The position numbers and the translations under genes were made by a program. Below are positions 12,185 to 63,939 of a stretch of DNA of 64,000 bases, piece by piece. This stretch comes from a virus, in IMG/VR virus record IMGVR_UViG_3300006810_000041, positions 1 through 64,000 of that record; one strand, given 5' to 3'. Each line of letters begins with the position of its first letter. Position 1 is the first letter of the stretch. Below the pieces are notes generated by a model that was not told where the DNA came from, searched no databases, and was given only the letters and a program-made list of their open reading frames with translations.

Positions 12185-15100
12185 TTATTTACATTTGTTA
12201 TTTATGTCTTCTGTAACACTTAAGAAAGAAGCTCCTGCTGAAGCACCTTCAGGCATGAAACCTTCAGGTAATTCTTGTAATTGAGAATCCTGTAACATCA
12301 TTGCCTCTATTTCTGCTAATCTTCCAGCAGGCATTCCGATGTCATCTCTAATATCAGGAGGCATAAAGTCTGGAGTTATACTTTTCTGAGCTTGGTAATT
12401 AAACTTTGAACCAGCTTTAACTACCATCAGGCTTTCTTGTATCGCCTGCAAAGCTACTGAATTTTCTCGTAAATTCTCTCTTTTAGCGATTATATTAACG
12501 ATTCTTGTAATAATATCTACTAATTTGTTTCTAAATCCTTTTACTTTTGAATAATAATCCATTTGATTTGCTAACTTTTTAAAGTGGTCATTCTCATTTG
12601 ATAAGGTTACTGCTAAGAATTCTTTTGGATTTACCATAGCATAATAAGCTTCAAATTCATCACCTTTTAAAGTAAACCCATCAGGTCTCACAGATTCATT
12701 ATTCTTTCTTTTTTCCTTGTAAGCAGTAAATTCTTTCATGAATTGGTCATACTTATCAGGGTCAAGTTTTCTTAACTCTGTTTTATACTGATTATAAACA
12801 TTCATAAAAGTGTACATTTCACTTGGAGCATTTTTCTTAACAGTGCCATCTTCATTAAGGAATTCTGTCATAAACCTAGAAGTCAAATTATGAAGAGACT
12901 CATGCAATAGTGTAATTGCATAATCTTCTCTTGAACTAATTTTATCAGTGTTAAGTGAAACCTGCCCAGTTTTCTTTCCTGTACTACCTTTAGCAAATAC
13001 ATTCCCTTGATTATACTTAAGAGTGTCTTGAGTTTTCAATAATGGTCCAATAAACTTAGCTATTTGGATTAGTCTTTGACTATCTCCAAACTCGCCATTG
13101 GCAATCATACCAACTGCATCAACTAAAGGTGTGCCCTCCCCAGGAAGTTCCCCTAAAATATCATCTTCTCTCATTTGAACCTCTATTCCTGAAGCTTTAT
13201 TATTGACAAACTCTTTTTCAAGCATACTTGAAGTTAAGTTTTGATTTTGATATTCATATTCAGCCATACCAAAAGTTCCTAAAGTGGTAATTGGATAGTA
13301 CACTTTAGATGCACTATCTAATTTATACAGTTTCCACTGATGTTGTTTAAGCTTACTTCTGTTTTTGCCTCCTACATTTGGTGCTCTTTCAGAAATATAT
13401 GTTGGTAATGGTCCTTCAGTAGAAAATTTAAGAGTGTAAAACTCTCCACCTTCTTTGATAGGACTTCTTTTCAACTTATGTTGAGCTGCAATCCCTGGAT
13501 TGTTCTGGTAAAACTGTTGCTCAAACTCTTCTAAGAATACCACATTATTATCATCATTGTTGAATAGTGTGTGGAATCTTCTAAGAACTGTTGAAGGTGT
13601 CATTTCTTTTCCTTGAGCAGTTTTAGTGACCATATCATCTAAATATTCAATTGGCAAGAATTTATGAAATTCTACTGCTCCTTGAATAACACCTCCAGAA
13701 GAATAAGAATAGGCTATAAGCTCTTGAGCCAAGAGTCTTGTTGAGTAATACTCTGATTTACCATTTCTCATAATTCTTGGAAGAGATATATCTTCAGCAA
13801 TAAGTTCTTTAAATGCTGTATAGATAGCCTCTTGGTTAGCTTCAAAAGATTCTTGATTGTTGAAAGTTATTAAAGATGGTTTACCATTTTCTCCATATTG
13901 GAAATTTAATAGGTTAAGGAATAAGTTTCCTCTCACTTTATCTAAACCAGCTTTATACTCTGAACTCTCATTTTTCTTCAAGCCTGCTGCTAAGACATAA
14001 TCAGTGTAACTGCTTAAGGATGTGTTGTATCCAGGAACGTCAATGAAAAGATTTTCTCTGACTTCTTTAGCATTTGTATTGAATAATCCAAGTATTTCAG
14101 CACTTGTCAAATATTTTTTAACCTCTTGAAAAATCTTCTCTTTTGCCTTAATAACAGCAAAAGAATTATTGGGGTTTATTCTGCTATTTGCAAGAATTTT
14201 ATTAACCACTTTATTTAAGTACACACTCTTGGCAGGGAATAACCCATTAAAGATATTTGCACTTAAAGATAAAGCTGAGCCAATCATAACTCCCTGATTA
14301 GTAGTAGGTTTTAAGAAGATATTATCTCCTAAATATAATAATCCCTCTTGGTCAGCCTCTTCCATCTGTTCAACTTCAAATCTCTCATAGAATTCTCCTA
14401 CAAGATTTTCAATACCTTCAAGATTAGAATTAGCCTCTAGGTTTGTAAAATATTCTCTAAATTCCTCTTCTTTTGTAGAAGACTCCCACATTGATTTTCC
14501 TAAGTTATCCAGGTCAACATGTTTGTTAGCTTCTTTAATCCCATCAGCATCTGTCATTAATTGAGTATATAAAGCAAGAATCTCTAATTGTTGTATAGTG
14601 TCTGCCTTATCTCCTAATTTTATATTGTCAGCTAATCTCTGTCCTGTAAACTCTTCATTTCTTTGTGAAGATTCAAAGTACATTCTATCTGTGCCATCTT
14701 GTGCAGGTATCATTATACCATACTCTCCATTTACTATGGTATATTCTGGTCCACCATACTTAAGAATTAGTTCTTGTATAACCTCTCCTTTTGGATTCAT
14801 AGAGAATTCTTCAGCACTAATCGACTCTTTCTCTCCAAGTAAAGCAAAGAATTCCTTCACAATAGGTTGAGAGTGTAGAAGATAAGGTATAGAATATTCT
14901 TTATAGTAAATTGTTTTACCACCTGCAATCTTTTTGCTTCTATGAAATGGATTATCCTCATTAAATTCTGAAGGTTTTTCTGTCGCAGTATAACCTGATG
15001 CTTTCCCTATAATTTGGTGCTCAGCATCAAAACCTAACATAGCCAACATACTATCAACAGCAATTGCACTCTTATGGTTCAAACCAGTTTTACCCAAAAT

Positions 15101-18100
15101 TTGTGCTTTTTCATTATCTGTTGCAGTATTTGCTCTTTCATCTAACACTGTTGAGATAGCTCTTCTTAAACCTAAAATAGTTTTATTCTTAGAATTTGAT
15201 ATTGTCATATCTGTACCAAAGTTTCCAGAAGAGTAGAGATTACCAATTGCAATCCCAGCTCTTGTTTTCTTTAGCTTACCATTCTTAAATACTTTTCGTG
15301 TAAGATGCACACCACCTTTTACTAAAGCTTGTTGCATATTACTGTGTAAGGTAATTGCTTTGGCGTAAATACCAATAGCAACCTGCCCTGTTGAACCATT
15401 ATCCATTTTAACTCTTTGATATTCAGGAGACAACATGTCAAATGTCGTACCCTCTTCCTCAAGACTTTGAATAAGTTCTTCAATATCTTCAGCCTGTCCT
15501 TCAGCAAATGCCATAGATAAAGCTTTGTTTATTTTTTGTTGAGCTGCTGGATTAGAGAATACAGAAATATGAATTTGAATAAAGTCATTTTCTAATAGTT
15601 TCTTATCCATGTTTTTAGGAATCTCAGATTTAAGCTTTTTGATAGCTTCTTGTAATTCCTCTTCAGTTTCAGGATACATATTGAAAGCTAAACTTTCTTC
15701 TTCTCCTAATAATGAAGCTAAAATATCATTAAATAATATTGCAGTCTCAGGACCATATTTACCATTTTGTCTGATAGATTGTTCTAAATCAGCAATTTGT
15801 CTTTTCTTTTCTTCTAAATATACATCTTTGTTCTCTTGAGTTAATTTTTCAATTCTTCCATCTTCTCTCACTACATGATTATATTGATATGCTGTTAAAG
15901 CATCAATATCAAAATCTTGACCCATTTGAGCAACAAAACTTTTAGGAGTTATAACTAAATCTCCTGACTCTGGTGGAAGGAATCCTGCAATTTCAACTGC
16001 TGAGCCTAAACCATGAGAAGAAGTAGGGATTCTAAATACAAACTGTTCTAATAGTTTTTCATCCATCATTTCAGTCTTCAATTGATATGCTCCATCTACT
16101 AACTTAATGTAAGTACCCTCTCCAGTTTCTTCTATAAAGTCGTCAAAGATATCAACTAATCTTCCTCCTAATTTTATTCTTGAAGGCATAAGTACTTGAG
16201 CTTTAAGTAGTTTACCATCTTTTGTGGTTGTACTTTGTAGCTCTCCTCCTTTATAGTTTCCAATACGAATTACTTTACTCATATGTTGGTATCCTTCAAT
16301 CCCCTCTTGGAGCTCCATGTTTCCTTCAGAAGCAGTAACAAACTTGTTACCTGGAATCTTTTGTCTGAAGATTTTATTATTGATTAATGCATTTAACATT
16401 GCTTCAAACTTATTACTGTTTCCTGAAGCCCATAGTGGCAATCTAAAGTTTTTATTTTTTCCTACTAACTCTAAAGCTTTAAGGTCCTGCTTGGCAAAAC
16501 CTCTACTCTTAGCTTCAGCAATAAGTAGTTTCTGTAATAATTCTTTTGATTTTGCAAGATTTTTAGGAACCATATTTTTGTCCAAACCTAAAGATTCTAA
16601 TAAATCTCCTCTTTTCATATTTACCATTCCTGAGAATGTTTGGAAAAATTTCTCTTTAAGTTCCTGTCCTGTAATAGGTTCTCCATCAAATTCAAACCCT
16701 TCCATAGTATCAATACCATCTCCAAATAAAAGTTTAAAGATTTGAGTACCCATAGATACATAATCATCTTGAGGTTTTCCAGCTTTACTTGGAACATCCT
16801 GCTGAATTTTAAAATGTTCTCTATCTAAGACCATATGATTTTCTGCTGTAATTACATCATCAAAGTTAGTTATAGTTTTATCAGCAGTAAAACCACCTAC
16901 TTTAGCTCCTGAATGGTGTACAGCTCTCACTGTTTTTCCTGTTTCAAGCTCTATTCTTTCCATTTGTACTCTAAGTTTATCTAACTTAGTTCCAGCAGTC
17001 AGTTCAGGTATTAAAGGGAAAGATGAGGTTTTTATATAGACTATTCTATTCACATCTCCTTCTAACATACTACCTGTATAAACAGGCTTAATAGGTTGTA
17101 ATAAAATCTCTAATTGTGTTTTACCATCAATTGCTTTATTTTTGCTGTTAATTATAGTGCTCAAAGACAACTCAGCAGGAATAGGTTTACCCACATTAGA
17201 TTTAGTGTGGTAAAATTTATGCTGCATATCAATCTTTTCACGAATTTCATTAATTGTCTCTTGAGGTAAACGTCCTTGCTTTTCAAGGATATAAAGATGT
17301 TCTTTAACACTTGAGTATTCTTGAGCATCAGTAGATTCAATTACAATAAAATCTGAAACAGTATCAAACTGTGCTTTCAATATCTTGTCATATTTAGTGT
17401 CTCCTGATACAGAAACTTTAATCATTGCTCTGTAAGACATCTTTGTTTCAGGATTCATCTCATCAATCTCTTCAACAGGATAGTGCCAACCTATAATGTC
17501 TTCTAAATTAGAAGCTGACCCATATATGTCATCCATAAATAATTGAATATACTTGTTTCCTTTTGAGTTGGCTAAATTCTTTCCTGGTGCAATCATTGCT
17601 GCCATCCTTTTACCAAGGTTAATAGCACTTTGCATAGAAGCTTTAGTAGCCTCTTTTAAATTTTTGGAGGTACTGTCAGCTTTTGATTTATAGTATAATG
17701 CTGGGTCTCCTGCAACCATTTGCATATAATTCATTGAACTCAGTTTAGAATTCAAAATAAAATCAACTTCAGCTAAAAAGTTTTTTTCTTCAGGAGTTCC
17801 AACTTTTCTTCCTGCCAAATATTCTGCATCATTATTAGTTTTTCTTTTAGTTGAAACTTTTTCAGCTTCTGCAAAAGTATTTTTCTCTACTTCTTTAGTG
17901 GCATCAGTTTTAAACTGTTCTTTAATTTGTTCTAAACTGGCTCCAGCTTCAATAGCTTCTTTTATAGTTTGCCCTTTTTTGTTTGTAATAGTATTAAGGA
18001 CAGGGAACACATTAAATCTAACAGCTCCCTCTGAATATCCTTTGATATCAGTCACTTGATTTGAATTAATGAAAGTGTGCATTCTTCTTAATTCAGGCAT

Positions 18101-21100
18101 CACATAATCATTCCACATCAATTCATTCAAATTATCAGAAAATACGAAGTTCCCCTTTTCGTCTTTATCAAAAGCTTGTTCACTTCTGAAAAAATCATAG
18201 ACAAAAGTTTTCAACATTACCATTCTACCTTTATCAGAATTGGTTAGAGTATTCATGTTTGATAATCTGATTTTAAAACCAGTTTTCTTGTCCATTTTTG
18301 CATCTCTACCTTTAGCTTGGAATGCAATTCTTAAAGCTAATTGATAATCTTCTTCACTTAATTCTTCTATACTTGCAAACATTGGAGAATCTTTATAGAT
18401 ATCTTTCAATGCCATAAGGTCCATCAAACCATGGTCAAAAGCTTCAACAAATTCAGGGTCTTCTTTAAGCATTCTCAACATATAAGAATCTTGAGCAAAG
18501 CTTGTTTTTCTTAATTTATCAACATAACTGTTTTTACTCAATACTGAGTTTTTAAGTTTTCTTATTTGTTGGTAAAAATATGTCATATTCTCTACTTCAG
18601 ATAAAGTTTTACCACCTGACCTTCTTGTAGTACTGGCATATTTATTATTATTTTTAGCTTCCAGATATGCTAATTGCTCTAATAAAGAGTGCATATCACT
18701 GAAAGGATTTAATTTTGTGTTTGTGCTGAAACCTAAGTCTCCTTTTGCATCTTTGTTTTTTATAAGGTATTCATTCAAAATATTGAATACACCTGCAGAA
18801 TGCTCAAATAAAGCCTTAAATGGTTGCTTAACTGCTACACCATCTTTTACAATCCTTAGTTCTCCTAACATAAGCTGTTCCATGGTCTTCTCTGATAAAC
18901 GAATACCAAAGTTGTCTAACCAATATCTTAAAGTGTCAGAATCTTGTTTCTCAGGACTTTTACCCCAACTTAAGTATTCATTGTATAGCCTATTAACCTC
19001 TTCCAAGTTCAATTGACCCATATCATTTAATGCAGTTCTATTAAAGTTATCTTGCCAGTTTCTTTTAATGGCTCTCACTGCAGAATTTGAATTACTCTCA
19101 TAAAATGTAGCATTCAAAGTATTATTGTTTTGAGTAAAACCTGAAAAATAAGCTGTAACTTTTTGAGCATGCATGTTATAAACAAAAGCATTTTGTATTT
19201 GTTCATCAGAAGCCTCTAATTTTTCAATTAAAGATTTCATCCAATAGTTACTATCAGAGTATTCTCTTAAGATATTCATCATATCTTTAAAGTCTGTTGT
19301 TGCTCCAATAGATTCAGATAGTGTTAATAAAACAGTATCATACATACTTTTAAATGGTGCAATTTTATTTCTACCTAAGAATCCTTTTTGCCCTGTTTCT
19401 ACTTTAGCAAATATTCTTTTCAAAGCAGTCCCCAGTTTATCTACTGGTAATGCTTCATTACTTTTTTTAACATAATCTTTTTCAGACATTCCTTCTGTCT
19501 CCTCATAAACATCAACAACAAAACTGTCTCTTCTGCCTCTATCAGAAGCTTCAGCTAACAGCCTATCTCTATTCTCTCTTACTTTTTGAATTTGTGTGCT
19601 CAAAGTATTTAAAGAATTTAACACAGCATCCACAGTAGGATTACCTTTAAAATCAATTAAATCATTTTTAGAATTAGTAATAGCAGTATTTGCATGAGCT
19701 AAATCACTATTTAGGTTCATCATTATCTGCTTATAATCAGCGTTTTTATCTGCCAGTTCAGCAGCAAGACTACCAATAAGGTCTTCTTCTTGTTCTACTG
19801 TTAATCCTTCAGTAATTAATATTGAATCAGTAACATTTTGTGCTGAAGTCATTTCAGAAACAATAAGTTCATCACTTTCTTCAACAGTGTTTACCTGACC
19901 TCCAAGAGCTTCAATAGTAGCAATGGCTTTATTTAAAGCAGCCTCTCTTGCAACTTTTTGCTCTTCAGTTTTGGTTTCCACTTCAATATCCAAAACCTCA
20001 GCAATTTCATCCATATTGTTAACTTCTTCTACAATCTTCTCTGTTTTTTGTATAACAGTAGGAGCAGTAGTGTTTTCTTCTACAATTTCATTAACTGGTT
20101 TTACTTTTCTGATTGGCTTGATTCTAACTGCTTGTTGAATAGCAGGAGTATATACAGGATTATCACTTGTGCCTACATTGTAACCCATCATATTAGTCTT
20201 ATGTGTGTCCTTTAAGTAGTCAATATAACTTTCTGCAATAACATTTACTTCAAATTGTCCATTATCTGTTTTAGCAATAGATACAATTTTACCTAAATGT
20301 GTGTCTCTACCAAATTTAGTATTCTCAACAAACTGTGAATCTTTAACAGCATGACCATTATCTTTGTCCCACCTGTTAGATAGACTAGCTATTGTAAGAC
20401 CACTACTCACTTTTCCTCCCTTAGCATCTTTAATGTTAACAAGTCCTTCTATCAACTCATTTAGAGATGTAGATAAAGAAAGTCCTGTTTCTTTTTTAAC
20501 TTTATCATGAATCTGTTGAGCTTGCTCTTTTGTCATTCTATAAGGATTATCCTTAGCAATGAAAGGAATGTTACCAGGTTTTTTAACACTAAAGGTATCA
20601 TTCATTAAAATAGTATTAGCAGCAGCCAAAATTCTTACAGTCTCAATTACTGATTTAGGTACACCTGCACCATTTTCATCATTTTGTCTTTGAGTGAGAC
20701 TAATCTCATATTTTTTAACTCCATTGACAGTAGCTACATGTTGAAGATATACAGCTTTATTAGCATTCTCTACAACAAACTTTTTAGATTTCCCATCAGC
20801 AGAAACTTTTTCTACTTTTCTTGAGAAACCAGAATCACTGTCTCCCCAATTGATTATATCATCAGTACTAATTTGAGTTTGACCATCTACAAAATGCAGA
20901 CCATTAACTCCCATTATTGCTATCTGACTATCAGGAGCTACCTCAGATAAAGGTTTTGGAGGTATAGTGTTACCTTCTTCATCTTGTTTGAAGTATAACC
21001 TAACAAATGAAGTACCATCTGAAACTATTTCAAATTGTTCTACATTCCCTGCTAAGATTTCTTTTCTTAATGAAAGAGCACTTTGCTTTTTTCTTTCGAT

Positions 21101-24100
21101 TTCAGCTAATTCAGTTCCAGAAAGGTTACTTACTTTAATGTTGTTTCTGTCAGCTTCAGACATTTCTCCTTCAGTTGAAGGGTTAAACCAGTCAGCCTCT
21201 GCTACCCAGCCTATTTTTTGTCCTTCACTATCTACATAAAACATAGGAACTTTTGCAATGTATTCATCAGTTTCAGAGAATTCTTCCATACTCATGTCTC
21301 CTCTATTCTCTTCAGCCCATTCTGCAAAAGATATTCTTTTAACTGTTCTTCCTTTATCATTTCTCACTGAAACCATAATACTTCCTATCTCTTCTGGGAC
21401 AGGTTTAGGAACAGTGACAATATCTCCTTTATTATTTTTGTCAGGATGTACAAGATTATTAATATTTGTGCCTGCTTCTTCATTTCTTTTTGCAATAGGA
21501 GCAGTAGTTCTACGAATATATACCTCTCCTGTTTCAGGGTCAGTTACTTCTTCTTCTGTAAACTCAAGTGCAGCATTATTAATCTTGTAAATCTCGTCAA
21601 AGACATTATCTCTTTTTTGAGTAACAACAGGAATTCCATTAGCATCACGATTAACTACCTCTGTTTCAGTGGTTGTTAAACCTAAAGCTTTTTCTTCTGT
21701 TTCTAATTTTTTAGTTTGCTCTGGAGATATTTCTAGAACTTCATTGGTAGCCATCTCAATTTTTTCATTAAGTAGGTTTGCCATCTCAACTGCAGCTATA
21801 TACTTTTCTTGAGCATTTACTTGACCTAAACCTGCATTGCTCCAAGCATTTGCAAATAAGGTTAAGTAGCTTTTGTAATCAGATATTGGTCCTCTACCAG
21901 CAACAGCTAATAAGAAATCTTCAAAAGTTACATCTCTACCTGTGGTTTTCTTAGCCTTTGCAACAAAATCTTTCATCTTGTTACCTATACTTACTAAAGG
22001 ATTACCTTGATTTTTACCTCCTAAAGATTCAATCATCTCATCTTCATCCATGTCCATAAAAATGTCCATAGGTGGAGCTTCAGGTGCATCTTCAATCATA
22101 CCTTCAATAGTTTCCATATCTTCTGATACTGCTTCTTTGAATTCCTCTGCTAACATTTCAACTTCTTGGTTTCTATCTGTTGAGACAGTGCCAAATGGAG
22201 TTGTAGTCACAGGAGGTGCAGCCTCTGGGATGCCAGTATCAGTGATTTCATTCCCCTCAACAGTCTCTGGACTGTCCTCAGGGCTAACCTCTTCTGTGGG
22301 TTCTTCTACTATTGGAGCAGCTTTTTCTTTAGCTTCTTGTTGAGCTATTTGTAGTATTTCTACTGCTTCCATTGTTTTAAGGACTTTCTTCTTACTCGAA
22401 TTAGAAATAGACTTACCATAAGCTTCTTCTATTGCTGTCTCTAAGCTCATTTGTTCTACTCCTTCTTTTTTCTGTTGTTCTAAATGACGTTTTGCAAACA
22501 CCATCATAGAAGCCTCATCCTTATATCTTTTTATTTTTGTAGGTGATTTTTCACCTTCTATCTTTTTATTTAAAACCCTAAGACCTTTTTCTGTATCTTC
22601 CATAAGACCATCCCACATAAGTCTTTGCCCTTCTTTCTGCTCATCACTTAGTAACTCAGAAGCATCAATAGCAGACAATTCTGCTCTAATACCTTCTTTA
22701 TTCTTTTCTAAGTTTCTTTTATTATATTCTAAGTTCAAAATAAATTCAGCATTAGGTAGCCCTTCAACTTTTTTCATACTTTTTTGAACAGCTTTTGCTT
22801 CAGTAATAGCCTGTATAGTTGCAGCAATAGTAGCTGCCTCTTTTTGTGTAGGAATTGTAGTTGGTGCTTGTTGCTTAGCTAAAGATTTTTCTAAAGCAGA
22901 AATGAACTCTTTGCCTTTACCATGTTTCATTGCCATAAAAGCTGCATTAAAGATTCTATTTTCTCGAATCTTATTAGCTTGTACAGTTTCACCTCTTTCA
23001 TCTAACTCCTTAATCTTGTTCTTATATTCTAGTTGGCTAAAGTTTCCACTTCCTGCAGCCATTAGTATTTCATCAAACTCTTCTTTTTCAAGACCTCCTT
23101 TTTGTAAGTCTTTCATTAACTCATTGAAATTCTTTTTAGTTTGTCTGTAATCTGCATCTAATTTCCTATTTATATAATTTTTACCTCTGATGGCAGTACC
23201 AACAGGGCTCATAATTATTTTTTGTAGTGGAGCTTGAGCTAAAACATTGAAATAGAAACTTCCATGAAGTAGTTCATCTTTTCTTGCTGCAGCTTCTTTG
23301 TCAGTTTCTCCCCAAACTGGGACTACCTGTACTGCAACTTCTTCTAATGCCTCTTCTAAGTTGCCACCAATAGTGACATTTCCTAATCTATTCCCAGAGA
23401 AGCTGTTCAAAGCTTCCATAGTTTTAGGGAAAGGCTTATTTATTTTATTTAGAATATTAGTAGGTCCTGCTGTGAAAGATTTTGTCTTTGAAACTAAATT
23501 TTTCCAAGTAGGTGTTTTTCTAAGTCCTTCAGTTAGTTTTCTAGTTACAAGGTTATTAGGAATACCTTTAAGAACATTAAGAGTTGCCACCTCTGAAGCA
23601 GATTCAACAAAGTTGCCTGTCCAAGATTTAGCCAGAGCACCTCCAACTGTTTGAGGCTCTTTCATCTCACTAAACATTTGTTTTAGGTATTTTAGATTAC
23701 TTTTTGTTGCTTCTAGTTGGTCTTCAGGAACAAGTCCACTATTTAATGCATCTTCATATAAAGTTATATCTCTTTGAACAGATTCATATTGCATTCTATC
23801 TGTTTCTAGAACTTTATTACCATCTTCATCAAAGCCCATATGAACTGTTCCATAATAATTGTCAATAGTATTTGCTAAATTAGAAGTATGTAGTGTAGCT
23901 TGAGTTGCAATATCTCCTACTAAACCTACTGTTCTTCCAATAGACTCTTTTACAACTTGCTTACCACCTGCAGTGGCTAATTTACTTGCAAAGTTAGACC
24001 CAACAGCTCCTGTAACACCTTTGGCAATGCCTTTACCAACAACTTTACCAGCCATTCTACCAAAGACACCACCAGCTAAATAAGATACAGAATGTCCTGC

Positions 24101-25264
24101 ACCATAAGTTAAATTATATAATGTACTTTGTTCTAAATCTAAACCACCCAATAAATCTATTCTTCCTAGATTCTCAACAGCTCTTTGTTCAGTAGGTGTT
24201 AGTTCTTCTCCATTCTCTAGTTTACCTATTAAATGGGCACGATACTTAACAGCATCATGAGCATCTCTTAACCCAAGTGTTCCCACATCAGTTAAAAATT
24301 CTTCACTGATTAAGTTATAAACATTTGCATCATCAACAAAAGAGTCTAAATAATTTATTTTAGATTGTAATTGTCGTCTAACATAATTATTAATATCTTG
24401 GTCTTCTCTACCAAATAGAGCACCAGCATTGGAATAATTTTCTTCATAGTCTTTATTGTAAAAATCTAATTCTTCTTTTAAGACATTACTTATTTTAGCA
24501 ATCTCAGGTTTTAAAAGATTTTTTCTTTTTTCATTTAACCCAACATACTCTTTTTTAAGGTCTTTATCATCCATTCCAACACCATCAGGAGTCAATGCAG
24601 CAATACCACTATATATGCCATCCCACATCCAATCTCCTAACTTGCTAAAAATATTTCTATCTTTATCCTTTTTTTCAGATGTGACACCTTTTAGTATAGT
24701 GTCCACATCTTCATCTACGTTTTCAATTTCTTTTATTCTATTCTCAGTAGGTAATACTTCTTTTAAAATATCAAAATTAATACCTTTGTCTTGAAACATA
24801 GTATCTTTTTGAATTTCAGTGAAGATTGTGTTTGTACTTAATGGCTCACCTGTCTCTAAATTATTAACTAGGTCCTCTTGAATAGCTTCTGATTTCTTTT
24901 CAGCAATCAAATCATCTTTAAGCATATAGGCTCCAGGCTCATTATCTTCAGCCTTTTTGTCCATATATTCAGTAAACACCTCATCAGACACATCATCAAG
25001 GTCAGCAAAAATTAAAGGATTTGCTTCATATTGAGTAATCTTTTCTTTTTGTTGATTTTTGGCTTCTTCAGCAGCAGTTCTATCTGATAAAATAGTTTCT
25101 TCAGCTTCTTTAAGATAATTATAATCTTCTTCTGAATCAAGAGAATTGTAAGCTTTACCATTAACTTCTACGTTAGATAAAAACTGACCTTCAGGACTTA
25201 ATATATTCCCATTCTCTACTATGTACCCAGCTAATTTGAGTTGTAAGATATCTTCTTCGTTCAT
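12185..25264 (-). CDS. Giant virion RNA polymerase polyprotein with zinc-peptidase motif (4359 aa)
   Basis: An uninterrupted frame of 4359 codons. The RNA polymerase identity rests on D3117-F-D-I-D3121, preceded by AQMGQ and followed by ALTAYQYNHV: the metal-binding DxDxD loop of the second double-psi barrel in single-chain phage/YonO-type polymerases. A conserved-looking KTSSFPLIPEL lies near 2745. Other regions: an acidic N-terminus; Gly/Ala-rich helices near 405-440; an acidic Pro/Thr linker near 975-1080; and, after the polymerase, H4121-E-S-L-H4125 (HExxH), a gluzincin-like metallopeptidase motif. The C-terminus ends with a linker containing ELPEGFMPEG. In crAss-like phages such polymerases are carried in the virion and transcribe early genes after ejection. 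The protease may process this or neighbouring polypeptides (inference). It starts 8 nt after the preceding stop. Confidence 0.85.
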   Translation of the reverse strand: MNEEDILQLKLAGYIVENGNILSPEGQFLSNVEVNGKAYNSLDSEEDYNYLKEAEETILSDRTAAEEAKNQQKEKITQYEANPLIFADLDDVSDEVFTEYMDKKAEDNEPGAYMLKDDLIAEKKSEAIQEDLVNNLETGEPLSTNTIFTEIQKDTMFQDKGINFDILKEVLPTENRIKEIENVDEDVDTILKGVTSEKKDKDRNIFSKLGDWMWDGIYSGIAALTPDGVGMDDKDLKKEYVGLNEKRKNLLKPEIAKISNVLKEELDFYNKDYEENYSNAGALFGREDQDINNYVRRQLQSKINYLDSFVDDANVYNLISEEFLTDVGTLGLRDAHDAVKYRAHLIGKLENGEELTPTEQRAVENLGRIDLLGGLDLEQSTLYNLTYGAGHSVSYLAGGVFGRMAGKVVGKGIAKGVTGAVGSNFASKLATAGGKQVVKESIGRTVGLVGDIATQATLHTSNLANTIDNYYGTVHMGFDEDGNKVLETDRMQYESVQRDITLYEDALNSGLVPEDQLEATKSNLKYLKQMFSEMKEPQTVGGALAKSWTGNFVESASEVATLNVLKGIPNNLVTRKLTEGLRKTPTWKNLVSKTKSFTAGPTNILNKINKPFPKTMEALNSFSGNRLGNVTIGGNLEEALEEVAVQVVPVWGETDKEAAARKDELLHGSFYFNVLAQAPLQKIIMSPVGTAIRGKNYINRKLDADYRQTKKNFNELMKDLQKGGLEKEEFDEILMAAGSGNFSQLEYKNKIKELDERGETVQANKIRENRIFNAAFMAMKHGKGKEFISALEKSLAKQQAPTTIPTQKEAATIAATIQAITEAKAVQKSMKKVEGLPNAEFILNLEYNKRNLEKNKEGIRAELSAIDASELLSDEQKEGQRLMWDGLMEDTEKGLRVLNKKIEGEKSPTKIKRYKDEASMMVFAKRHLEQQKKEGVEQMSLETAIEEAYGKSISNSSKKKVLKTMEAVEILQIAQQEAKEKAAPIVEEPTEEVSPEDSPETVEGNEITDTGIPEAAPPVTTTPFGTVSTDRNQEVEMLAEEFKEAVSEDMETIEGMIEDAPEAPPMDIFMDMDEDEMIESLGGKNQGNPLVSIGNKMKDFVAKAKKTTGRDVTFEDFLLAVAGRGPISDYKSYLTLFANAWSNAGLGQVNAQEKYIAAVEMANLLNEKIEMATNEVLEISPEQTKKLETEEKALGLTTTETEVVNRDANGIPVVTQKRDNVFDEIYKINNAALEFTEEEVTDPETGEVYIRRTTAPIAKRNEEAGTNINNLVHPDKNNKGDIVTVPKPVPEEIGSIMVSVRNDKGRTVKRISFAEWAEENRGDMSMEEFSETDEYIAKVPMFYVDSEGQKIGWVAEADWFNPSTEGEMSEADRNNIKVSNLSGTELAEIERKKQSALSLRKEILAGNVEQFEIVSDGTSFVRLYFKQDEEGNTIPPKPLSEVAPDSQIAIMGVNGLHFVDGQTQISTDDIINWGDSDSGFSRKVEKVSADGKSKKFVVENANKAVYLQHVATVNGVKKYEISLTQRQNDENGAGVPKSVIETVRILAAANTILMNDTFSVKKPGNIPFIAKDNPYRMTKEQAQQIHDKVKKETGLSLSTSLNELIEGLVNIKDAKGGKVSSGLTIASLSNRWDKDNGHAVKDSQFVENTKFGRDTHLGKIVSIAKTDNGQFEVNVIAESYIDYLKDTHKTNMMGYNVGTSDNPVYTPAIQQAVRIKPIRKVKPVNEIVEENTTAPTVIQKTEKIVEEVNNMDEIAEVLDIEVETKTEEQKVAREAALNKAIATIEALGGQVNTVEESDELIVSEMTSAQNVTDSILITEGLTVEQEEDLIGSLAAELADKNADYKQIMMNLNSDLAHANTAITNSKNDLIDFKGNPTVDAVLNSLNTLSTQIQKVRENRDRLLAEASDRGRRDSFVVDVYEETEGMSEKDYVKKSNEALPVDKLGTALKRIFAKVETGQKGFLGRNKIAPFKSMYDTVLLTLSESIGATTDFKDMMNILREYSDSNYWMKSLIEKLEASDEQIQNAFVYNMHAQKVTAYFSGFTQNNNTLNATFYESNSNSAVRAIKRNWQDNFNRTALNDMGQLNLEEVNRLYNEYLSWGKSPEKQDSDTLRYWLDNFGIRLSEKTMEQLMLGELRIVKDGVAVKQPFKALFEHSAGVFNILNEYLIKNKDAKGDLGFSTNTKLNPFSDMHSLLEQLAYLEAKNNNKYASTTRRSGGKTLSEVENMTYFYQQIRKLKNSVLSKNSYVDKLRKTSFAQDSYMLRMLKEDPEFVEAFDHGLMDLMALKDIYKDSPMFASIEELSEEDYQLALRIAFQAKGRDAKMDKKTGFKIRLSNMNTLTNSDKGRMVMLKTFVYDFFRSEQAFDKDEKGNFVFSDNLNELMWNDYVMPELRRMHTFINSNQVTDIKGYSEGAVRFNVFPVLNTITNKKGQTIKEAIEAGASLEQIKEQFKTDATKEVEKNTFAEAEKVSTKRKTNNDAEYLAGRKVGTPEEKNFLAEVDFILNSKLSSMNYMQMVAGDPALYYKSKADSTSKNLKEATKASMQSAINLGKRMAAMIAPGKNLANSKGNKYIQLFMDDIYGSASNLEDIIGWHYPVEEIDEMNPETKMSYRAMIKVSVSGDTKYDKILKAQFDTVSDFIVIESTDAQEYSSVKEHLYILEKQGRLPQETINEIREKIDMQHKFYHTKSNVGKPIPAELSLSTIINSKNKAIDGKTQLEILLQPIKPVYTGSMLEGDVNRIVYIKTSSFPLIPELTAGTKLDKLRVQMERIELETGKTVRAVHHSGAKVGGFTADKTITNFDDVITAENHMVLDREHFKIQQDVPSKAGKPQDDYVSMGTQIFKLLFGDGIDTMEGFEFDGEPITGQELKEKFFQTFSGMVNMKRGDLLESLGLDKNMVPKNLAKSKELLQKLLIAEAKSRGFAKQDLKALELVGKNKNFRLPLWASGNSNKFEAMLNALINNKIFRQKIPGNKFVTASEGNMELQEGIEGYQHMSKVIRIGNYKGGELQSTTTKDGKLLKAQVLMPSRIKLGGRLVDIFDDFIEETGEGTYIKLVDGAYQLKTEMMDEKLLEQFVFRIPTSSHGLGSAVEIAGFLPPESGDLVITPKSFVAQMGQDFDIDALTAYQYNHVVREDGRIEKLTQENKDVYLEEKKRQIADLEQSIRQNGKYGPETAILFNDILASLLGEEESLAFNMYPETEEELQEAIKKLKSEIPKNMDKKLLENDFIQIHISVFSNPAAQQKINKALSMAFAEGQAEDIEELIQSLEEEGTTFDMLSPEYQRVKMDNGSTGQVAIGIYAKAITLHSNMQQALVKGGVHLTRKVFKNGKLKKTRAGIAIGNLYSSGNFGTDMTISNSKNKTILGLRRAISTVLDERANTATDNEKAQILGKTGLNHKSAIAVDSMLAMLGFDAEHQIIGKASGYTATEKPSEFNEDNPFHRSKKIAGGKTIYYKEYSIPYLLHSQPIVKEFFALLGEKESISAEEFSMNPKGEVIQELILKYGGPEYTIVNGEYGIMIPAQDGTDRMYFESSQRNEEFTGQRLADNIKLGDKADTIQQLEILALYTQLMTDADGIKEANKHVDLDNLGKSMWESSTKEEEFREYFTNLEANSNLEGIENLVGEFYERFEVEQMEEADQEGLLYLGDNIFLKPTTNQGVMIGSALSLSANIFNGLFPAKSVYLNKVVNKILANSRINPNNSFAVIKAKEKIFQEVKKYLTSAEILGLFNTNAKEVRENLFIDVPGYNTSLSSYTDYVLAAGLKKNESSEYKAGLDKVRGNLFLNLLNFQYGENGKPSLITFNNQESFEANQEAIYTAFKELIAEDISLPRIMRNGKSEYYSTRLLAQELIAYSYSSGGVIQGAVEFHKFLPIEYLDDMVTKTAQGKEMTPSTVLRRFHTLFNNDDNNVVFLEEFEQQFYQNNPGIAAQHKLKRSPIKEGGEFYTLKFSTEGPLPTYISERAPNVGGKNRSKLKQHQWKLYKLDSASKVYYPITTLGTFGMAEYEYQNQNLTSSMLEKEFVNNKASGIEVQMREDDILGELPGEGTPLVDAVGMIANGEFGDSQRLIQIAKFIGPLLKTQDTLKYNQGNVFAKGSTGKKTGQVSLNTDKISSREDYAITLLHESLHNLTSRFMTEFLNEDGTVKKNAPSEMYTFMNVYNQYKTELRKLDPDKYDQFMKEFTAYKEKRKNNESVRPDGFTLKGDEFEAYYAMVNPKEFLAVTLSNENDHFKKLANQMDYYSKVKGFRNKLVDIITRIVNIIAKRENLRENSVALQAIQESLMVVKAGSKFNYQAQKSITPDFMPPDIRDDIGMPAGRLAEIEAMMLQDSQLQELPEGFMPEGASAGASFLSVTEDINNKCK

Positions 25265-55614: not shown

Positions 55615-55615
55615 A

Positions 55616-57779: not shown

Positions 57780-58147
57780 ATTTTTACTAATTTAATTCTG
57801 TACCCTTGATGATTATCAATAGGTATTAAAAATGATTTCATCACTATTTTCTTTGTGATATCATTCTTCGATAAATATCTCTTTTCTATTAATTTTTTTA
57901 GGTGGTTTCCGAGACCACCAGGTTTAAGATTCAGCTTTGCCATAACCTTTTTCCTTACGACTCCATTAAACATGTCCTCTTCTATAAGACTTTTATCTTG
58001 AGATAAGAATGCAGCCAAAACTTCAATCTCTTTAATAGACATCTTCTCTGGGAAATCTTTCTCAGGTAAAAGAATGTTTATCATCTCTAAATGCTTAACA
58101 TAGTAGTCGTACTTACTGACTTTTTGTATGTTTGATATTACTTGCAT
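57776..58147 (-). CDS. Putative winged-helix-type regulator (123 aa)
   Basis: Residues 30-100 read as successive helices (SIKEIEVLAAFLSQ, then FNGVVRKKVMAKLNLKPGGLGNHLKKLIEKRYLSK) ending in a strand-like KKIVMKSFLIPI. The pattern 'MAKLNLKPGGLGNHLKKLIEKRYL' (recognition-like helix then wing) fits a winged helix binding DNA. It has its own strong promoter (TTG-N19-TAATTTTG), suggesting a regulator of the minus-strand block. Target sites are unknown. Confidence 0.55.
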   Translation of the reverse strand: MQVISNIQKVSKYDYYVKHLEMINILLPEKDFPEKMSIKEIEVLAAFLSQDKSLIEEDMFNGVVRKKVMAKLNLKPGGLGNHLKKLIEKRYLSKNDITKKIVMKSFLIPIDNHQGYRIKLVKI

Positions 58148-58170
58148 TTGCTTTTAATTTAATTCTGAAG

Positions 58171-58200
58171 CAAAATTAATAAAAATATTAATATATACAA
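58171..58200 (-). promoter_or_regulatory. Promoter TTG-N19-TAATTTTG before the 123-aa gene
   Basis: On the minus strand, TTG at 58200-58198 is followed after 19 nt by TAATTTTG (58178-58171), matching the Bacteroidota -33/-7 consensus. It lies in a 71-bp gap; the ATG at 58147 is 23 nt downstream. It is one of the two best promoters in the minus block. Confidence 0.65.
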
Positions 58201-58218
58201 GCTTTTTATGAATAAATT

Positions 58219-58497
58219 TTATGGGGCTGTTTCAATGTATTCAAATACATGGTAGAAATTGTTACCTTTTTCAACACTACCTATATATCCTACACTTGTA
58301 TTAGGAGGTAGAATAACCTCTCCTGTGTTCACTATAACTAAAAAAGTTTGAGGTACCATATTATAAGTGTTTTCTAGCATATAAAATAATGATAGGTCTT
58401 GCCCTACTACATTTATATTCATTGCTTTTACCCCTTCTGGAGCATCAACTATATGTATTCCTTGTACTATTGGTAGCACTACTAATTCTATTCTCAT
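58219..58497 (-). CDS. Hypothetical 92-aa protein after the LamG/FN3 fibre
   Basis: Beta-patterned small protein (RIELVVLPIVQGIHIVDAP, then FLVIVNTGEVILPPNTSVGYIG). Its start overlaps the stop of the 765-aa gene by 1 nt, so it may be a partner or chaperone of that fibre. A 71-bp gap with a promoter follows. No family recognised. Confidence 0.55.
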   Translation of the reverse strand: MRIELVVLPIVQGIHIVDAPEGVKAMNINVVGQDLSLFYMLENTYNMVPQTFLVIVNTGEVILPPNTSVGYIGSVEKGNNFYHVFEYIETAP

Positions 58498-60794
58498 TAT
58501 GTTATTGTTATTTCTGTTGTAAAATCACTAAAATTCATATCTCCATCCATAGTCCTTATTTTAAAGGTAGTACCTATCACTGTCCCACCATCGTTAACAA
58601 CTTCTGTAAGGTCAATCGTCGTGCCAGTCGCTGTTATCTCCCTATAATAAAAATGTTTTCTATATGGTGTGCCATCGTCAATCCAAACCTCGTAAGCCTC
58701 AGTACCATTAGCATTAGGTGTAGGTGGAGTAAAAGATATATCAAAGGATGTAGCTGTTACATTACTATATCCAGGAACTGTTGGTGGGTCAACTGTTATA
58801 GGTGCTCCAACCTCAATTAAATTAGCTCCACGTAAATCTCTTGCCACAACTAAAGATGCATGCACATCAACTCCATGTTGAAAAGTAGCCCAAGAGACTG
58901 AACCTGACCCTGTGTTACTTCCTCCTACTGAAGCAGTAAAAGCGTTTCCTGCAACTCCAGTAACATTTGCTCTCACAGCTCCCAAAGCATTATCATTAAC
59001 CATAGTCATATCTGAAGCTCCAGGTCTTGTGTCAGTATTTACTGCATTTTTAAGGTTAGTATGAACAGTATTAGGGTGTAATCCATCTCCTTGAAATTCT
59101 CCATCAGTAGTTGGAGCTCCAGCTACACAGGTATATACTAGACCATTGAATTCCACAGTATCTCCTACTGCCCAACCACTAGTAGTTCTTACAAAAGCAT
59201 TTCTATCTGTAACACCTAAAACTGAATTATAGTATATTTTTGCTCCAGACTTTACACTTGAAAATATATATCCCCTAGCACTTAAATACATTGAAGAGAT
59301 TTCACACCCATAACTAATACTAGTTAGGTTAATTATTTTTAATCTTAATAGTCCTGTTAAATTCTCGAATATCGTTCCATTAGTCCCAGTAGTTATTGAT
59401 GTTAAACTTGGGCAATCAAAAGATTGAAGAGCTGGTAGTACAGATATTAATCTCCTGTCATTAGCCACTGTTACCCCTGAAACTAATCTTTTTAGTTTAT
59501 TAGAACTTTGAATAGCTATTTGTGCATAGTTATATAAATTCGGTACATACAGATATTCTATATTTGCTGCTCCTGAAACAATATCTCCAGTAAGAGAAAG
59601 TCCATCTGCATCAATCAAATATGTTATACTACTATCAGACATAGCATCTGTAACACTAAAGTCAAAAGTACTTGTAATATAACATTGTACATTATTACTC
59701 CCATCAACTTCATATCTATGTATATCTGCAGTCCCAATGTCAATAAGAGAAGCCAGACTAGTTGCAGTAGGTATATAGGAAGCTCCAGCTCCTCCAACAA
59801 AAAAGTTATAATATTGTGTAGGAGTAGGATTTAGACTCCACAGTCTTTTATCTAATTCATATAAAGTGGGAATATCTTCGTCAGGTATTGCAGTATCTAA
59901 TAATCTTAAGCTTGCAAGATTACCATAAAGTTTAACTGTTTCTCCTCTATCTGAAAATAAACTTACTCCTGCTCCTTGCGAAACTAACCAATCTCTGTAT
60001 CCAGCGATATTTGTTCTACCCACTATAACAGAATTTAAGTACACATTCACTGCATTGCCAGAGACCTTAACAATAATATGTCTAACATCATCTTCATCTA
60101 TAATCTCTGGTAAATAAAGACTTTCAGTTGCTGCCCTCCCAAAGTTACTGAAATCTATAAGTTTTTTAGTACTTGCTCTATCTATGTACACCTCTAAACC
60201 AAGTCTGCTTGTAGTTCCATCCCCTTGCCCATATATTATGCCTGTTGTGCTTGCATTATTATTATTTGCTATAACAATTAGTGTATAATCTCCTGTTCTA
60301 GTGTAATCAGGATTAATATCTCCTTGCATAGCTCTTAGACCACTCCAATCAGTTTGTAGAGTAGATGGATTTCCATTGGGGTCATATGTAGGAGTACCAT
60401 TCTCCCACATCTCACACATTGCTAGACCATTAGCAGTTAAAAGTTTCTTTTGATTAATTTGGTCAAATATTTCATGTTGATATACTTTACCTGTACCAAT
60501 AGAATATGTAGTTAACCAATCTGAGAAAGTAGTACCATCTAAGATATAAGTATCAAAGCTTCCTATCAAAGAGGCACCAGTGACTTCAGCAAATTCTCCT
60601 TCTTGAAACCACAAACTTCTTCTACTAGCATTATCTAAGTCTGTTTTCCAAATAATTGCCATGTTTGTGTCTTCTTTTGAAACAATTGGGCATCTATTCC
60701 ATGAATACCAATATTCCCAAGTTCCAAAATCTAAGTAGTGAGGTTCTATTACAGGAAGTTCTACTCTTCGTCTATGTTCAATATGTTTTTGCAT
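58497..60794 (-). CDS. 765-aa receptor-binding/adhesin protein with LamG-like and FN3 domains
   Basis: Residues about 150-310 form a concanavalin/LamG-like sandwich (DYTLIVIANNNNASTTGIIY, HIIVKVSGNAVNVYLNSVIV). Residues about 390-520 contain leucine-rich-repeat-like, irregular beta segments (NIEYLYVPNLYNYAQI, LLRLKIINLTSISYG). A linker module with YTCVAGAPTTDGEFQGDG comes next. The last 90 residues are a fibronectin type III domain (PGYSNVTATSFDISFTPP). Such domain mixes bind glycans or surface proteins. It lies just after the C1q-like protein gene, so both are probably host-recognition proteins. Confidence 0.72.
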   Translation of the reverse strand: MQKHIEHRRRVELPVIEPHYLDFGTWEYWYSWNRCPIVSKEDTNMAIIWKTDLDNASRRSLWFQEGEFAEVTGASLIGSFDTYILDGTTFSDWLTTYSIGTGKVYQHEIFDQINQKKLLTANGLAMCEMWENGTPTYDPNGNPSTLQTDWSGLRAMQGDINPDYTRTGDYTLIVIANNNNASTTGIIYGQGDGTTSRLGLEVYIDRASTKKLIDFSNFGRAATESLYLPEIIDEDDVRHIIVKVSGNAVNVYLNSVIVGRTNIAGYRDWLVSQGAGVSLFSDRGETVKLYGNLASLRLLDTAIPDEDIPTLYELDKRLWSLNPTPTQYYNFFVGGAGASYIPTATSLASLIDIGTADIHRYEVDGSNNVQCYITSTFDFSVTDAMSDSSITYLIDADGLSLTGDIVSGAANIEYLYVPNLYNYAQIAIQSSNKLKRLVSGVTVANDRRLISVLPALQSFDCPSLTSITTGTNGTIFENLTGLLRLKIINLTSISYGCEISSMYLSARGYIFSSVKSGAKIYYNSVLGVTDRNAFVRTTSGWAVGDTVEFNGLVYTCVAGAPTTDGEFQGDGLHPNTVHTNLKNAVNTDTRPGASDMTMVNDNALGAVRANVTGVAGNAFTASVGGSNTGSGSVSWATFQHGVDVHASLVVARDLRGANLIEVGAPITVDPPTVPGYSNVTATSFDISFTPPTPNANGTEAYEVWIDDGTPYRKHFYYREITATGTTIDLTEVVNDGGTVIGTTFKIRTMDGDMNFSDFTTEITIT

Positions 60795-62649: not shown

Positions 62650-62664
62650 GTTAGGTTAGGTTAG
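62645..62664 (+). repeat. Short tandem repeat GTTAG (four units, one imperfect)
   Basis: GTTAA then three GTTAG units run from 62645 to 62664, starting inside the last codons of the 52-aa gene. Purpose unclear; replication slippage may explain it. Confidence 0.7.
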
Positions 62665-62668
62665 GCTA

Positions 62669-62692: not shown

Positions 62693-62744
62693 AGGTAGGA
62701 AATTTTTTGATGATTTGTGAGAATGTGAACCACCTTGAGTAAAA

Positions 62745-62761
62745 CCCCCACTAATTTCTGG
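62745..62761 (+). promoter_or_regulatory. Cassette motif copy 1 (CCCCCACTAATTTCTGG)
   Basis: Matches copy 2 (CCCTAACTAATTCCTGG, 63038-63054) at 14 of 17 positions and lies 74 nt before the 44-aa gene. See the related motifs at 63030 and 63445. Confidence 0.5.
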
Positions 62762-62835
62762 CAGAGAAACTCCCCCCTGTCCAAATTCAAACCGAAATCA
62801 TTTCTGGGGAGCATAATTAATACATACTATCTACC

Positions 62836-62970
62836 ATGAGACTAAGAACTATCTCTCTTGACAGACAGGCACAGTGCCAAGCAATCCTTGACATGAACAA
62901 CAAGGAGCAGGCTGTGATGCTAACCTTTGGACTAACAGACAAGCCAAAGAGCTACATGTTTCCAAACTGA
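62836..62970 (+). CDS. Small basic protein (44 aa), first of the right-hand cassettes
   Basis: ATG at 62836 to TGA at 62968-62970. The protein starts MRLRTISLDRQAQCQAIL and ends TDKPKSYMFPN. Codons end in C more often than in the rest of the window (ATC, CTT/GAC, AAC, TAC), as in the two paralogous genes downstream, which supports it being a real gene. ATTAATACAT precedes the start by 10 nt, as before the 94-aa gene. A hairpin follows 14 nt after the stop. No family recognised. Confidence 0.6.
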   Translation: MRLRTISLDRQAQCQAILDMNNKEQAVMLTFGLTDKPKSYMFPN

Positions 62971-62984
62971 AACAAACAGGAGAA

Positions 62985-63009
62985 ATCCCTTGGTATAACG
63001 CCAAGGGAT
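62985..63009 (+). terminator. Hairpin after the 44-aa gene
   Basis: ATCCCTTGG (62985-62993), 7-nt loop TATAACG, CCAAGGGAT (63001-63009): a perfect 9-bp stem without a U-run. It may be a terminator of a non-classical type or a 3'-end stabiliser. Confidence 0.6.
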
Positions 63010-63029
63010 AACTCTTGTGAACAAGCTTA

Positions 63030-63050
63030 ACTCAATACCCTAACTAATTC
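63030..63050 (+). promoter_or_regulatory. Cassette motif copy 2 (ACTCAATACCCTAACTAATTC)
   Basis: Identical at 20 of 21 positions to copy 3 (63445-63465). It lies 46 nt before the 94-aa gene and 20 nt after the hairpin. No TAnnTTTG box is seen between it and the gene, so it may itself be part of a promoter or operator. Confidence 0.6.
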
Positions 63051-63096
63051 CTGGACTTGACCTAATGATGGTCCTTAAACATTAATACATTACATT

Positions 63097-63381
63097 ATGA
63101 GCAAAATCACTCTTACTATCGACAAATCAGTGAAAACAGTTAACGACAACTTTATGAACAAGTTAATCGGCAAAGGTAACTCTGTAACAACAGCCTTTGG
63201 TACTACTGAAGGTGGACGCAGAACCTTCTACATGTTCACTGACCAAGAGAATGCAAAAGGCTTGTCAGCAGAAGTTGACCTTAGTCAGTTTGACCAAATC
63301 AAAAGGGAATATCCATTCACTGATGACCAAGGTGCAGAACAGGTTGCAACACTGACATACCTATACCCGAAGAAAGCCTAA
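63097..63381 (+). CDS. Unknown 94-aa protein, paralogue of the 96-aa protein
   Basis: Starts MSKITLTIDKSVKTVNDNF. The centre holds EGGRRTFYMFTDQENAKG and the end EYPFTDDQG, then EQVATLTYLYPKKA. Alternating hydrophobic residues suggest a small beta-rich domain without membrane segments. It has more G+C and more C-ending codons than the rest of the window, which suggests strong expression or a separate origin. I do not recognise the family; single-stranded-DNA or host-protein binding would be guesses. Confidence 0.75.
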   Translation: MSKITLTIDKSVKTVNDNFMNKLIGKGNSVTTAFGTTEGGRRTFYMFTDQENAKGLSAEVDLSQFDQIKREYPFTDDQGAEQVATLTYLYPKKA

Positions 63382-63397
63382 GGGTATAGGCAAGGCA

Positions 63398-63423
63398 AGG
63401 ACACATCAGCAATGGTGTGTCCT
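63398..63423 (+). terminator. Hairpin after the 94-aa gene
   Basis: AGGACACA (63398-63405), 10-nt loop, TGTGTCCT (63416-63423): a perfect 8-bp stem, no U-run after it, 16 nt past the stop. Same placement as the hairpins at 62985 and 63841. Confidence 0.6.
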
Positions 63424-63444
63424 ACACCTTTAGTACCTAACTCT

Positions 63445-63465
63445 ACTCAAGACCCTAACTAATTC
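63445..63465 (+). promoter_or_regulatory. Cassette motif copy 3 (ACTCAAGACCCTAACTAATTC)
   Basis: 20 of 21 positions match copy 2. It lies 21 nt after the hairpin, like copy 2 (20 nt), and 69 nt before the 96-aa gene. The AT-rich stretch 63470-63530 in between may hold the promoter. Confidence 0.6.
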
Positions 63466-63534
63466 TTGCTATTTTTATTTATACTAATTATATATTTTAA
63501 TTAGGTAGAAGTAGTGATTTAATTTTTTACAGCT

Positions 63535-63825
63535 ATGAGCAATGTAATCAATTTGACTATTGAGTCTTGTACTAAGACTGTCAATGGTAATTACGCCAAC
63601 AAGTTAGTTGGTAAGACTGAAGGTGTGAAGACTGCCTTTGGTGAGGTAGAAGGTGGAAGACGCACTTTCTATATGTTTACAGACCAAGAGAACGCTAAGG
63701 GTACTAGTGGTGATGTAAACCTTGACCTTTTTGACGTTGTTAAAAGTGAGTATCCTTTTACCGATGATAAAGGTGAAGAGCAAGTAGCGACTTTAAGCTA
63801 CCTATATCCTAAGCGAGCTAACTAA
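63535..63825 (+). CDS. Unknown 96-aa protein, paralogue of the 94-aa protein
   Basis: Begins MSNVINLTIESCTKTVNGNY and shares with its neighbour the identical core EGGRRTFYMFTDQENAKG, EYPFTDD, EQVATL and YLYPK; overall identity is roughly 60% by eye, spread along the whole length. Differences lie in the loops (TSGDVNLDLFDVV against LSAEVDLSQFDQI). DNA identity is clearly lower than in a fresh duplication, so both copies have been kept under selection. Function unknown. Confidence 0.75.
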   Translation: MSNVINLTIESCTKTVNGNYANKLVGKTEGVKTAFGEVEGGRRTFYMFTDQENAKGTSGDVNLDLFDVVKSEYPFTDDKGEEQVATLSYLYPKRAN

Positions 63826-63840
63826 GCTTGCTAGGTAGGT

Positions 63841-63875
63841 CATTAAGGTGCATCATTCATTGGTGCATCTTAGTG
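63841..63875 (+). terminator. Hairpin after the 96-aa gene
   Basis: CATTAAGGTGCAT (63841-63853) can pair with GTGCATCTTAGTG (63863-63875) over 13 bp with three G-U pairs and a 9-nt loop; GGTGCATC is also directly repeated here. It lies 15 nt past the stop. CTTTGCTTT follows. Confidence 0.5.
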
Positions 63876-63939
63876 CTTTGCTTTAAATTGAACTTTAATT
63901 GAGTGATTTGGTTTAAGTTTTTATTATTGCAGTTAGTAA

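Follow-up and report, generated by a model that had tools for sequence, protein, structure and literature searches.

The window, that is, the whole stretch of DNA analysed here, comprises the first 64,000 bases of a 67,996-base viral record and carries towards its right end an array of three consecutive plus-strand units, each composed of a short motif, one small reading frame and a hairpin (Table 1). The motif copies that a preliminary description had placed at 62745, 63038 and 63453 are all exact, and the three plus-strand reading frames of 44, 94 and 96 aa are found where it listed them. Across the full record the exact form CCCnnACTAATT occurs at three sites only, with no occurrence of the reversed control pattern, while a scan for the 21-base form ACTCAAnACCCTAACTAATTC allowing up to three mismatches returns two sites against 0.00 expected. 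The motif is shared by all three units as described, but the first copy falls into a head class of its own, in which a second C-rich box follows. A short TTAGG-repeat run, gttaggttaggttaggc, lies upstream of the array (62650–62666).

Each of the three hairpins was compared with 200 shuffles, and in no case did a shuffle fold as well. Their reported position 14 to 16 nt past the stop codon holds for units 1 and 2 (14 and 16 nt), whereas the third stem is longer than first described; the spacing from hairpin core to the next 21-mer is indeed 20 and 21 nt. In the terminator scan, hairpins 1 and 2 lack a T-tract, and no Rfam family is found in the window. The suggestion that the array might run on to the right does not hold, as the motif model gives no additional site over the final 4 kb. 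The only other model match, a weaker one (E 0.0015 in this record, 0.0023 in its near-identical 105-kb relative), lies at the same distant place in both, adding one weak distant site to the motif cluster of each. To the right of the window, two stretches (G000 64450–64830 and 65500–66250, equivalent to L004 4450–4830 and 5500–6250) are long and free of convincing reading frames, with no Rfam match at E 0.5.

Table 1. Features of the array, the putative polymerase gene and the tmRNA genes of relatives.
Feature	Sequence	Coordinates	Strand	Basis
Head promoter-like motif, unit 1, core TAAAACCCCCACTAATTTCTGG	window	62732..62764	+	R1 match, E 4.9e-5 (R1 trained on site)
Second C-rich box CTCCCCCC, head-unit feature, 17 nt past ACT	window	62770..62777	+	gap and CCCC comparison of heads with non-heads
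Putative 44-aa reading frame, unit 1	window	62836..62970	+	ORF list
Hairpin 1, core 62985–63009, terminator-like, no T-tract	window	62976..63018	+	-25.6 kcal/mol, z -7.71
Promoter-like motif, unit 2	window	63025..63057	+	R1 match, E 7.1e-6 (R1 trained on site)
94-aa gene, predicted all-beta fold, SSB-like at modest scores	window	63097..63381	+	ORF, paralogy, structure prediction
Hairpin 2, core 63398–63423, GCAA loop	window	63382..63438	+	-25.9 kcal/mol, z -4.79
Promoter-like motif, unit 3	window	63440..63472	+	R1 match, E 6.7e-6 (R1 trained on site)
96-aa gene, paralog of the 94-aa gene	window	63535..63825	+	69% identical
Hairpin 3, the only one of three accepted by the terminator scan	window	63833..63883	+	-25.5 kcal/mol, z -5.72
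Giant 4,359-aa gene, DFDID at aa 3117: putative virion RNA polymerase, proposed motif reader	window	12185..25264	-	DFDxD polymerase motif and phi14:2 match
tmRNA, in a feature-free stretch of the record	Fpv3 NC_031904	82006-82420	-	Rfam only
tmRNA	L149	8634-9052		Rfam only
tmRNA	L063	5709-6083		
tmRNA	L142	1455-1925	-	Rfam only
tmRNA	L128	5828-6247		Rfam only
tmRNA	L092	5114-5533		ARAGORN only

At the protein level, the 94- and 96-aa genes share 69% identity and differ at 101 bases, of which 21, 21 and 59 fall at codon positions 1, 2 and 3, a comparison that identifies them as coding paralogs. Structure prediction gives the 94-aa protein an all-beta fold (mean pLDDT 85.2); most of its listed Foldseek matches are single-stranded DNA-binding (SSB, OB-fold) proteins, with a best E of 0.012, and its structural matches reach Z values up to 7.2, a level that the tool calls common. 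A pattern-seeded search of bacterial genomes yields no relatives of this gene, and phage records return matches at E 4–10 only. Matches to ribosomal protein L33, at E 0.057 and above, were discounted as weak. The 44-aa reading frame has no PHROGs match, and its Pfam matches lie at E 0.14 and above.

The terminase of the record is 60–61% identical to those of the Flavobacterium psychrophilum phages Fpv3 and FpV4. It matches 157 phage records and the portal protein 149, among them phages of Flavobacterium and Bacteroides, uncultured cr-series phages, phi14:2 and crAss001, and by this homology the record is a crAss-like phage. The label rests on homology because the record of Fpv3, the nearest named phage, names no order, being filed under Caudoviricetes and Fipvunavirus, while phi14:2, cr85_1 and crAss001 are filed in Crassvirales. 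Long late-type genes occupy the minus strand, and the array opens a plus-strand early module that faces away from them. The late-strand genes include the putative virion RNA polymerase, in which a 401-aa region around the DFDID motif is similar to a phi14:2 reading frame of 2,184 aa (E 9.5e-9) and, weakly, to one of cr85_1 (E 9e-7). In the record of locus L015 (G006 52846–60440), the two parts of the polymerase query match two long frames several kb apart, an arrangement that resembles a split gene.

The motif recurs in relatives reached by several routes. Protein similarity leads to L007, which carries related cargo (48% identity) behind the same motif; a pattern scan of viral contigs leads to L011 and L015, where the motif precedes different cargo; and Fpv3, found through its terminase, has several copies at the start of its early module. 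A first matrix built from 15 sites and applied to 292 loci reveals, beyond the arrays known before, further arrays in L061, L063, L078, L079, L084, L112, L117, L133, L142, L147 and L149, results that omit six redundant loci of the window. Retrieval independent of the motif, which makes for a fairer comparison, by protein for L007, L328 and L330 and by terminase for Fpv3, gives arrays in 4/4 cases. Alignment of 58 sites from 15 loci resolves 33 ungapped columns with the consensus nCnCAnnTCAAAACCCTCACTnATTnnTAGnAT and 0 predicted base pairs. A structured RNA in the motif is therefore rejected, and the lack of predicted pairing implies a role as DNA or as an unfolded, linear stretch.

The 33-base model R1, whose training set includes many of the records scored here, some of them near-duplicates, matches 13 of 15 records, 12 of these with 3–7 matches, and its best matches reach E 1.6e-9 under a short calibration of E-values. 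Among 22 control records, chosen by pattern rather than at random, nine match at E 0.5 or better, eight of them weakly and one, the single-site record G063, strongly (1.7e-8). In phi14:2 there is one weak match (E 0.019), which is remote from the head element and shares the strand of the polymerase gene, and cr85_1 and bajarodcaudo virus have none. In every record with several hits, all copies lie on one strand (22/22), grouped where the early module begins, a distribution at odds with the random placement that the preliminary description had named as its refutation; many records also carry one more copy, likewise oriented, some kb further downstream. An accidental origin, in which AT-rich intergenic sequence repeats itself by composition, might be read from the 12-base form with one mismatch, which occurs at 5 sites in the window against 4.81 in shuffles and so shows no excess. 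Set against this are the strength of the best matches, the arrays across many phages, the hairpin z-scores and a 2-Mb Markov background in which no score reaches 20; chance can be practically dismissed, and is refuted because the motif is conserved across diverged genomes.

Comparison of the units across relatives reveals a recurrent anatomy. A reading frame of at least 40 aa starts within 170 nt of the motif at 38/56 sites, at a median of 67 nt after the motif CAA (range 24–135), and is lacking at the other 18/56. Between one motif and the next, a hairpin of -10 kcal/mol or better occupies 18/37 gaps and is missing from 19/37; such hairpins arise in 2.2% of shuffles (n = 740) and in 7.5% of control segments (n = 107). 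In 17 of these 18 gaps the motif CAA lies 10–43 nt past the strong hairpin, and in the remaining one 56 nt past it. Many hairpins in relatives are followed by T-rich tracts in the manner of intrinsic terminators; loop types come from single folds, and the count of no GNRA loops is an effect of the script's loop definition. The leaders of two window units look dissimilar. Four cargo families (A to D, D being that of the window) recur across arrays; family A corresponds to phrog_15744 (E 2.9e-31), and in cr85_1 and tikkala relatives of it follow the head element; shallow alignments detect no homology of D to A, B or C. The reading as a modular expression unit is supported and reaches far past the window, to an element of about 33 bases that recurs in many phages with differing cargo genes behind it.

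Several early modules contain further features. Head units without a reading frame of 28 aa occur in L061 (7144–7415), L112 (reverse complement, 9108–9379) and L149 (4206–4477); these share about 200 nt of similar-looking sequence and may encode a non-coding early RNA. In addition, tmRNA genes lie in the early module of relatives about 0.6–1.5 kb downstream of a motif copy (Table 1), with no tmRNA match in the window (Rfam) or in L004. The public feature table of Fpv3 lists coding genes only and none of the motif or hairpin elements.

The motif is linear, strand-bound and intergenic, frequently has a strong hairpin before it and stands in front of diverse genes; it is best read as a promoter. 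Its median distance of 67 nt from the start codon in the 38 gene-bearing units would also place it within a message if the promoter lay elsewhere, as expected of an RNA-level 5′ leader element such as a translation enhancer or a processing or stability signal. We regard a leader element as very improbable, given a motif without base pairing, the copies that lack a downstream reading frame of 40 aa and the short distance from hairpin to motif, into which a promoter of its own would hardly fit if transcription stops at the hairpin. A repeated element near a genome end could instead serve replication, as an origin, or packaging, or mark a site of recombination or cassette insertion, and to this the turnover of cargo between phages, the near-identical tandem duplication in tikkala, with its element copies about 740 bp apart, and the position of the DAC15 early-gene end within a direct terminal repeat would be congenial. 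The units, however, vary in length and content, hairpins alternate with motifs in about half of the gaps, and ordinary recombination between repeats could explain the remaining duplication, so that a role of this kind appears very improbable.

The distribution of the motif follows that of the phage type and its polymerase. A terminase of the window type is present in 15/15 array records first tested and in 0/3 others. Of 50 more records, drawn from at least 120 stretches, four are known arrays, all with the terminase, and among the other 46 a single record (G038) has the terminase; this record carries seven motif matches, i.e. an array. The virion polymerase is found in 11/24 records, namely 8/10 array records, G063, phi14:2 and cr85_1, with the two array records that lack it being fragments of 50 and 59 kb, and in 0/11 controls. 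Among 15 later motif-bearing records it is present in 7/7 of at least 45 kb and in 0/8 shorter ones. In all 16 records that contain both a motif (E 1.5e-4 or better) and the polymerase gene, the two lie on opposite strands. Seven named crAss-like phages were viewed (Fpv3, phi14:2, cr85_1, bajarodcaudo virus, crAss001, tikkala and DAC15), the 33-base model being run on the first four; an array of the 33-base element is seen in Fpv3 only, and the other six are all more distant than Fpv3. On these comparisons, in which the controls were picked by pattern, the motif appears limited to relatives with the virion polymerase.

Beyond phages, a search of 84,980 genomes of bacteria and archaea yields two matches to the strict motif form. 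These represent the same sequence in two Flavobacteriaceae bins, with a single copy per 8-kb stretch, and an element of host genomes was rejected. A search of the two bins that had no known positive found no virion polymerase.

A motif that accompanies the polymerase equally accompanies everything else in this phage type, which weakens the link to this enzyme, and the same placement and unit anatomy would suit any promoter, including an early promoter read by the host RNA polymerase together with a phage activator or sigma-like factor. The Bacteroidota housekeeping consensus, which we take to be TTTG, 17–23 nt and TAnnTTTG, was compared with 56 sites: no full promoter of the TTTG-N-TAnnTTTG type is seen where about 0.2 would be expected by chance, so few that the result excludes no more than a regular host promoter. 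On its own, the TAnnTTTG box shows no enrichment near the sites (0.41 per kb against 0.60 in the control). A promoter serving the first genes must moreover work before any phage factor exists, unless such a factor is injected. Reading by the host enzyme also sits poorly with phi14:2, whose early genes, according to PMC10136315, are transcribed by its virion polymerase and despite rifampicin. Dependence on the host polymerase is accordingly unlikely.

The interpretation that we favour is that the array consists of tandem early promoter–gene–terminator units and that the motif is probably an early promoter read by the virion RNA polymerase. Motif, hairpins, their placement and strand, the co-occurrences and the turnover of cargo are observed, and promoter function is supported by this anatomy; promoter activity itself, the start site, the polymerase involved and termination are inferred. 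Each unit would comprise a phage-specific promoter of about 33 bases, a leader, one small gene and a hairpin, while some units of relatives without an evident gene may yield a non-coding RNA. The giant virion-borne RNA polymerase would enter the cell together with the DNA and recognise the motif without need of a host sigma factor, initiating near the conserved TAG/TGG end of the motif and stopping at the hairpin, which may end or protect the transcript, such that each small gene would form its own short early message. The number of units may grow by duplication, as the tandem paralogs suggest, with cargo turning over between phages.

The head of the array provides a possible connection to the wider crAss-like phages. 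The first unit differs from the others in carrying mostly CCCCCACT followed by a second C-run, and its core can be written CCC-n(2–3)-ACT, with an irregular core in L015. By script, the gap from core to second C-box is 15–19 nt in 15/19 heads; the heads of L336, crAss001 and tikkala were mis-anchored by the script and have gaps of 14–17 nt by eye, and that of L079 has only a weak second C-box. At the equivalent position, CCCC occurs at 0/45 non-head sites. The table of 19 heads leaves out L063, L133 and L328. In gut phages the common form is CCCATCACTTAGCC, with one exact site each in crAss001 and cr85_1, two in tikkala and one with a mismatch in bajarodcaudo virus; a 9.5-kb stretch of DAC15 contains no head core. 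The occurrence of the pattern CCCCCACTCnTTnTTnG by itself is mostly chance: among 50 of its records examined, from at least 120 stretches, two have the terminase, phi14:2 and the L007 contig.

In crAss001 the head element (near record position 150, minus strand) lies directly upstream of the right-end early genes, which are transcribed within 10 min according to PMC8375218; upstream of it, and sharing its strand, is the annotated gene Gp2. A similarity search recovers the crAss001 element from 34 phage records, 27 of them at least 99% identical. The tikkala duplication carries identical 86-aa genes, and the head of cr85_1 lies on the same strand as its weak polymerase match. The head elements of phi14:2 and crAss001 resemble array heads in the core and the second C-box, and it is through these short features that the arrays may be linked to the wider order. 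That the head element serves as a virion-polymerase early promoter in a large part of the crAss-like phages, including those of marine bacteria and fish pathogens as well as gut crAss001, with arrays grown from it as a module that swaps small host-takeover genes, is a possibility to which we give slightly less than even weight.

Three further observations concern the early ends of the named phages. In phi14:2 (KC821624, near 97924, minus strand), a motif-like CCCCTCACTTAT is directed towards the small genes that run leftward, at a distance of about 90 bp from the head element, which points rightward. In crAss001 (NC_049977), Gp1 (102620-87) is short and from some point on diverges from its 86-aa tikkala homolog, as after a frameshift. 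In DAC15 (MT074136, 97653–99494), the paralogous small early genes DAC15_130 and DAC15_132 lie inside a direct terminal repeat.

crAss-like phages are among the commonest viruses of the human gut, and the motif represents a good candidate for the switch used by their injected RNA polymerase. With an element of about 33 bases of defined place and strand and with cultured relatives at hand, the question of a virion-polymerase promoter can be put to a direct test. In addition, the arrays single out possibly the first-expressed genes of crAss-like phages, a natural source of host-takeover proteins, and offer a compact early promoter–terminator module.

Coliphage N4 has few promoters before small early genes, which are read by an injected polymerase, and its virion-polymerase promoters are small DNA hairpins formed by a conserved short inverted repeat. 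The present array shares with N4 the few (here putative) promoters before small early genes, but its motif lacks conserved pairing; with 0 predicted pairs over 58 sites, it does not have the inverted repeat of an N4-type hairpin promoter.

Among the crAss-like phages, Fpv3 and FpV4 have the same motif, recognised by the same model, in the same place and strand relation. Fpv3 has six model matches, two of which are identical copies at both record ends, and in place of the 94/96-aa pair its cargo is an 87-aa gene from a different family. The phages phi14:2 and crAss001 resemble the window phage in a divergent early module, a giant virion polymerase, and a head core with a second C-box near the junction; they possess one head copy (tikkala two) as against arrays of 3–7 copies, and the 33-base model misses the phi14:2 head. 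According to PMC8375218, all crAss-like phages have a giant RNA polymerase that is injected. No promoter for a crAss-like virion polymerase was found in the open-licence literature, the consulted portions of PMC10136315 containing no use of "promoter" and those of PMC8375218 no use of "promoter motif".

The direct precedent, as described in PMC10770324, is the virion polymerase of the Thermus phage P23-45 and its promoter motif. The P23-45 motif is AT-rich and has mapped start sites, whereas here the motif is known from its sequence, with a CCC-n-n-ACT core, mostly in one cluster and with one small gene per unit. In P23-45, several promoters and terminators lie towards one genome end, and a two-barrel, virion-carried polymerase accompanies a motif that precedes the first-entering genes and occurs only in relatives with the polymerase (PMC10770324); the present phage has a putative counterpart of each. 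As in P23-45, the motif lies upstream of early genes on their own strand.
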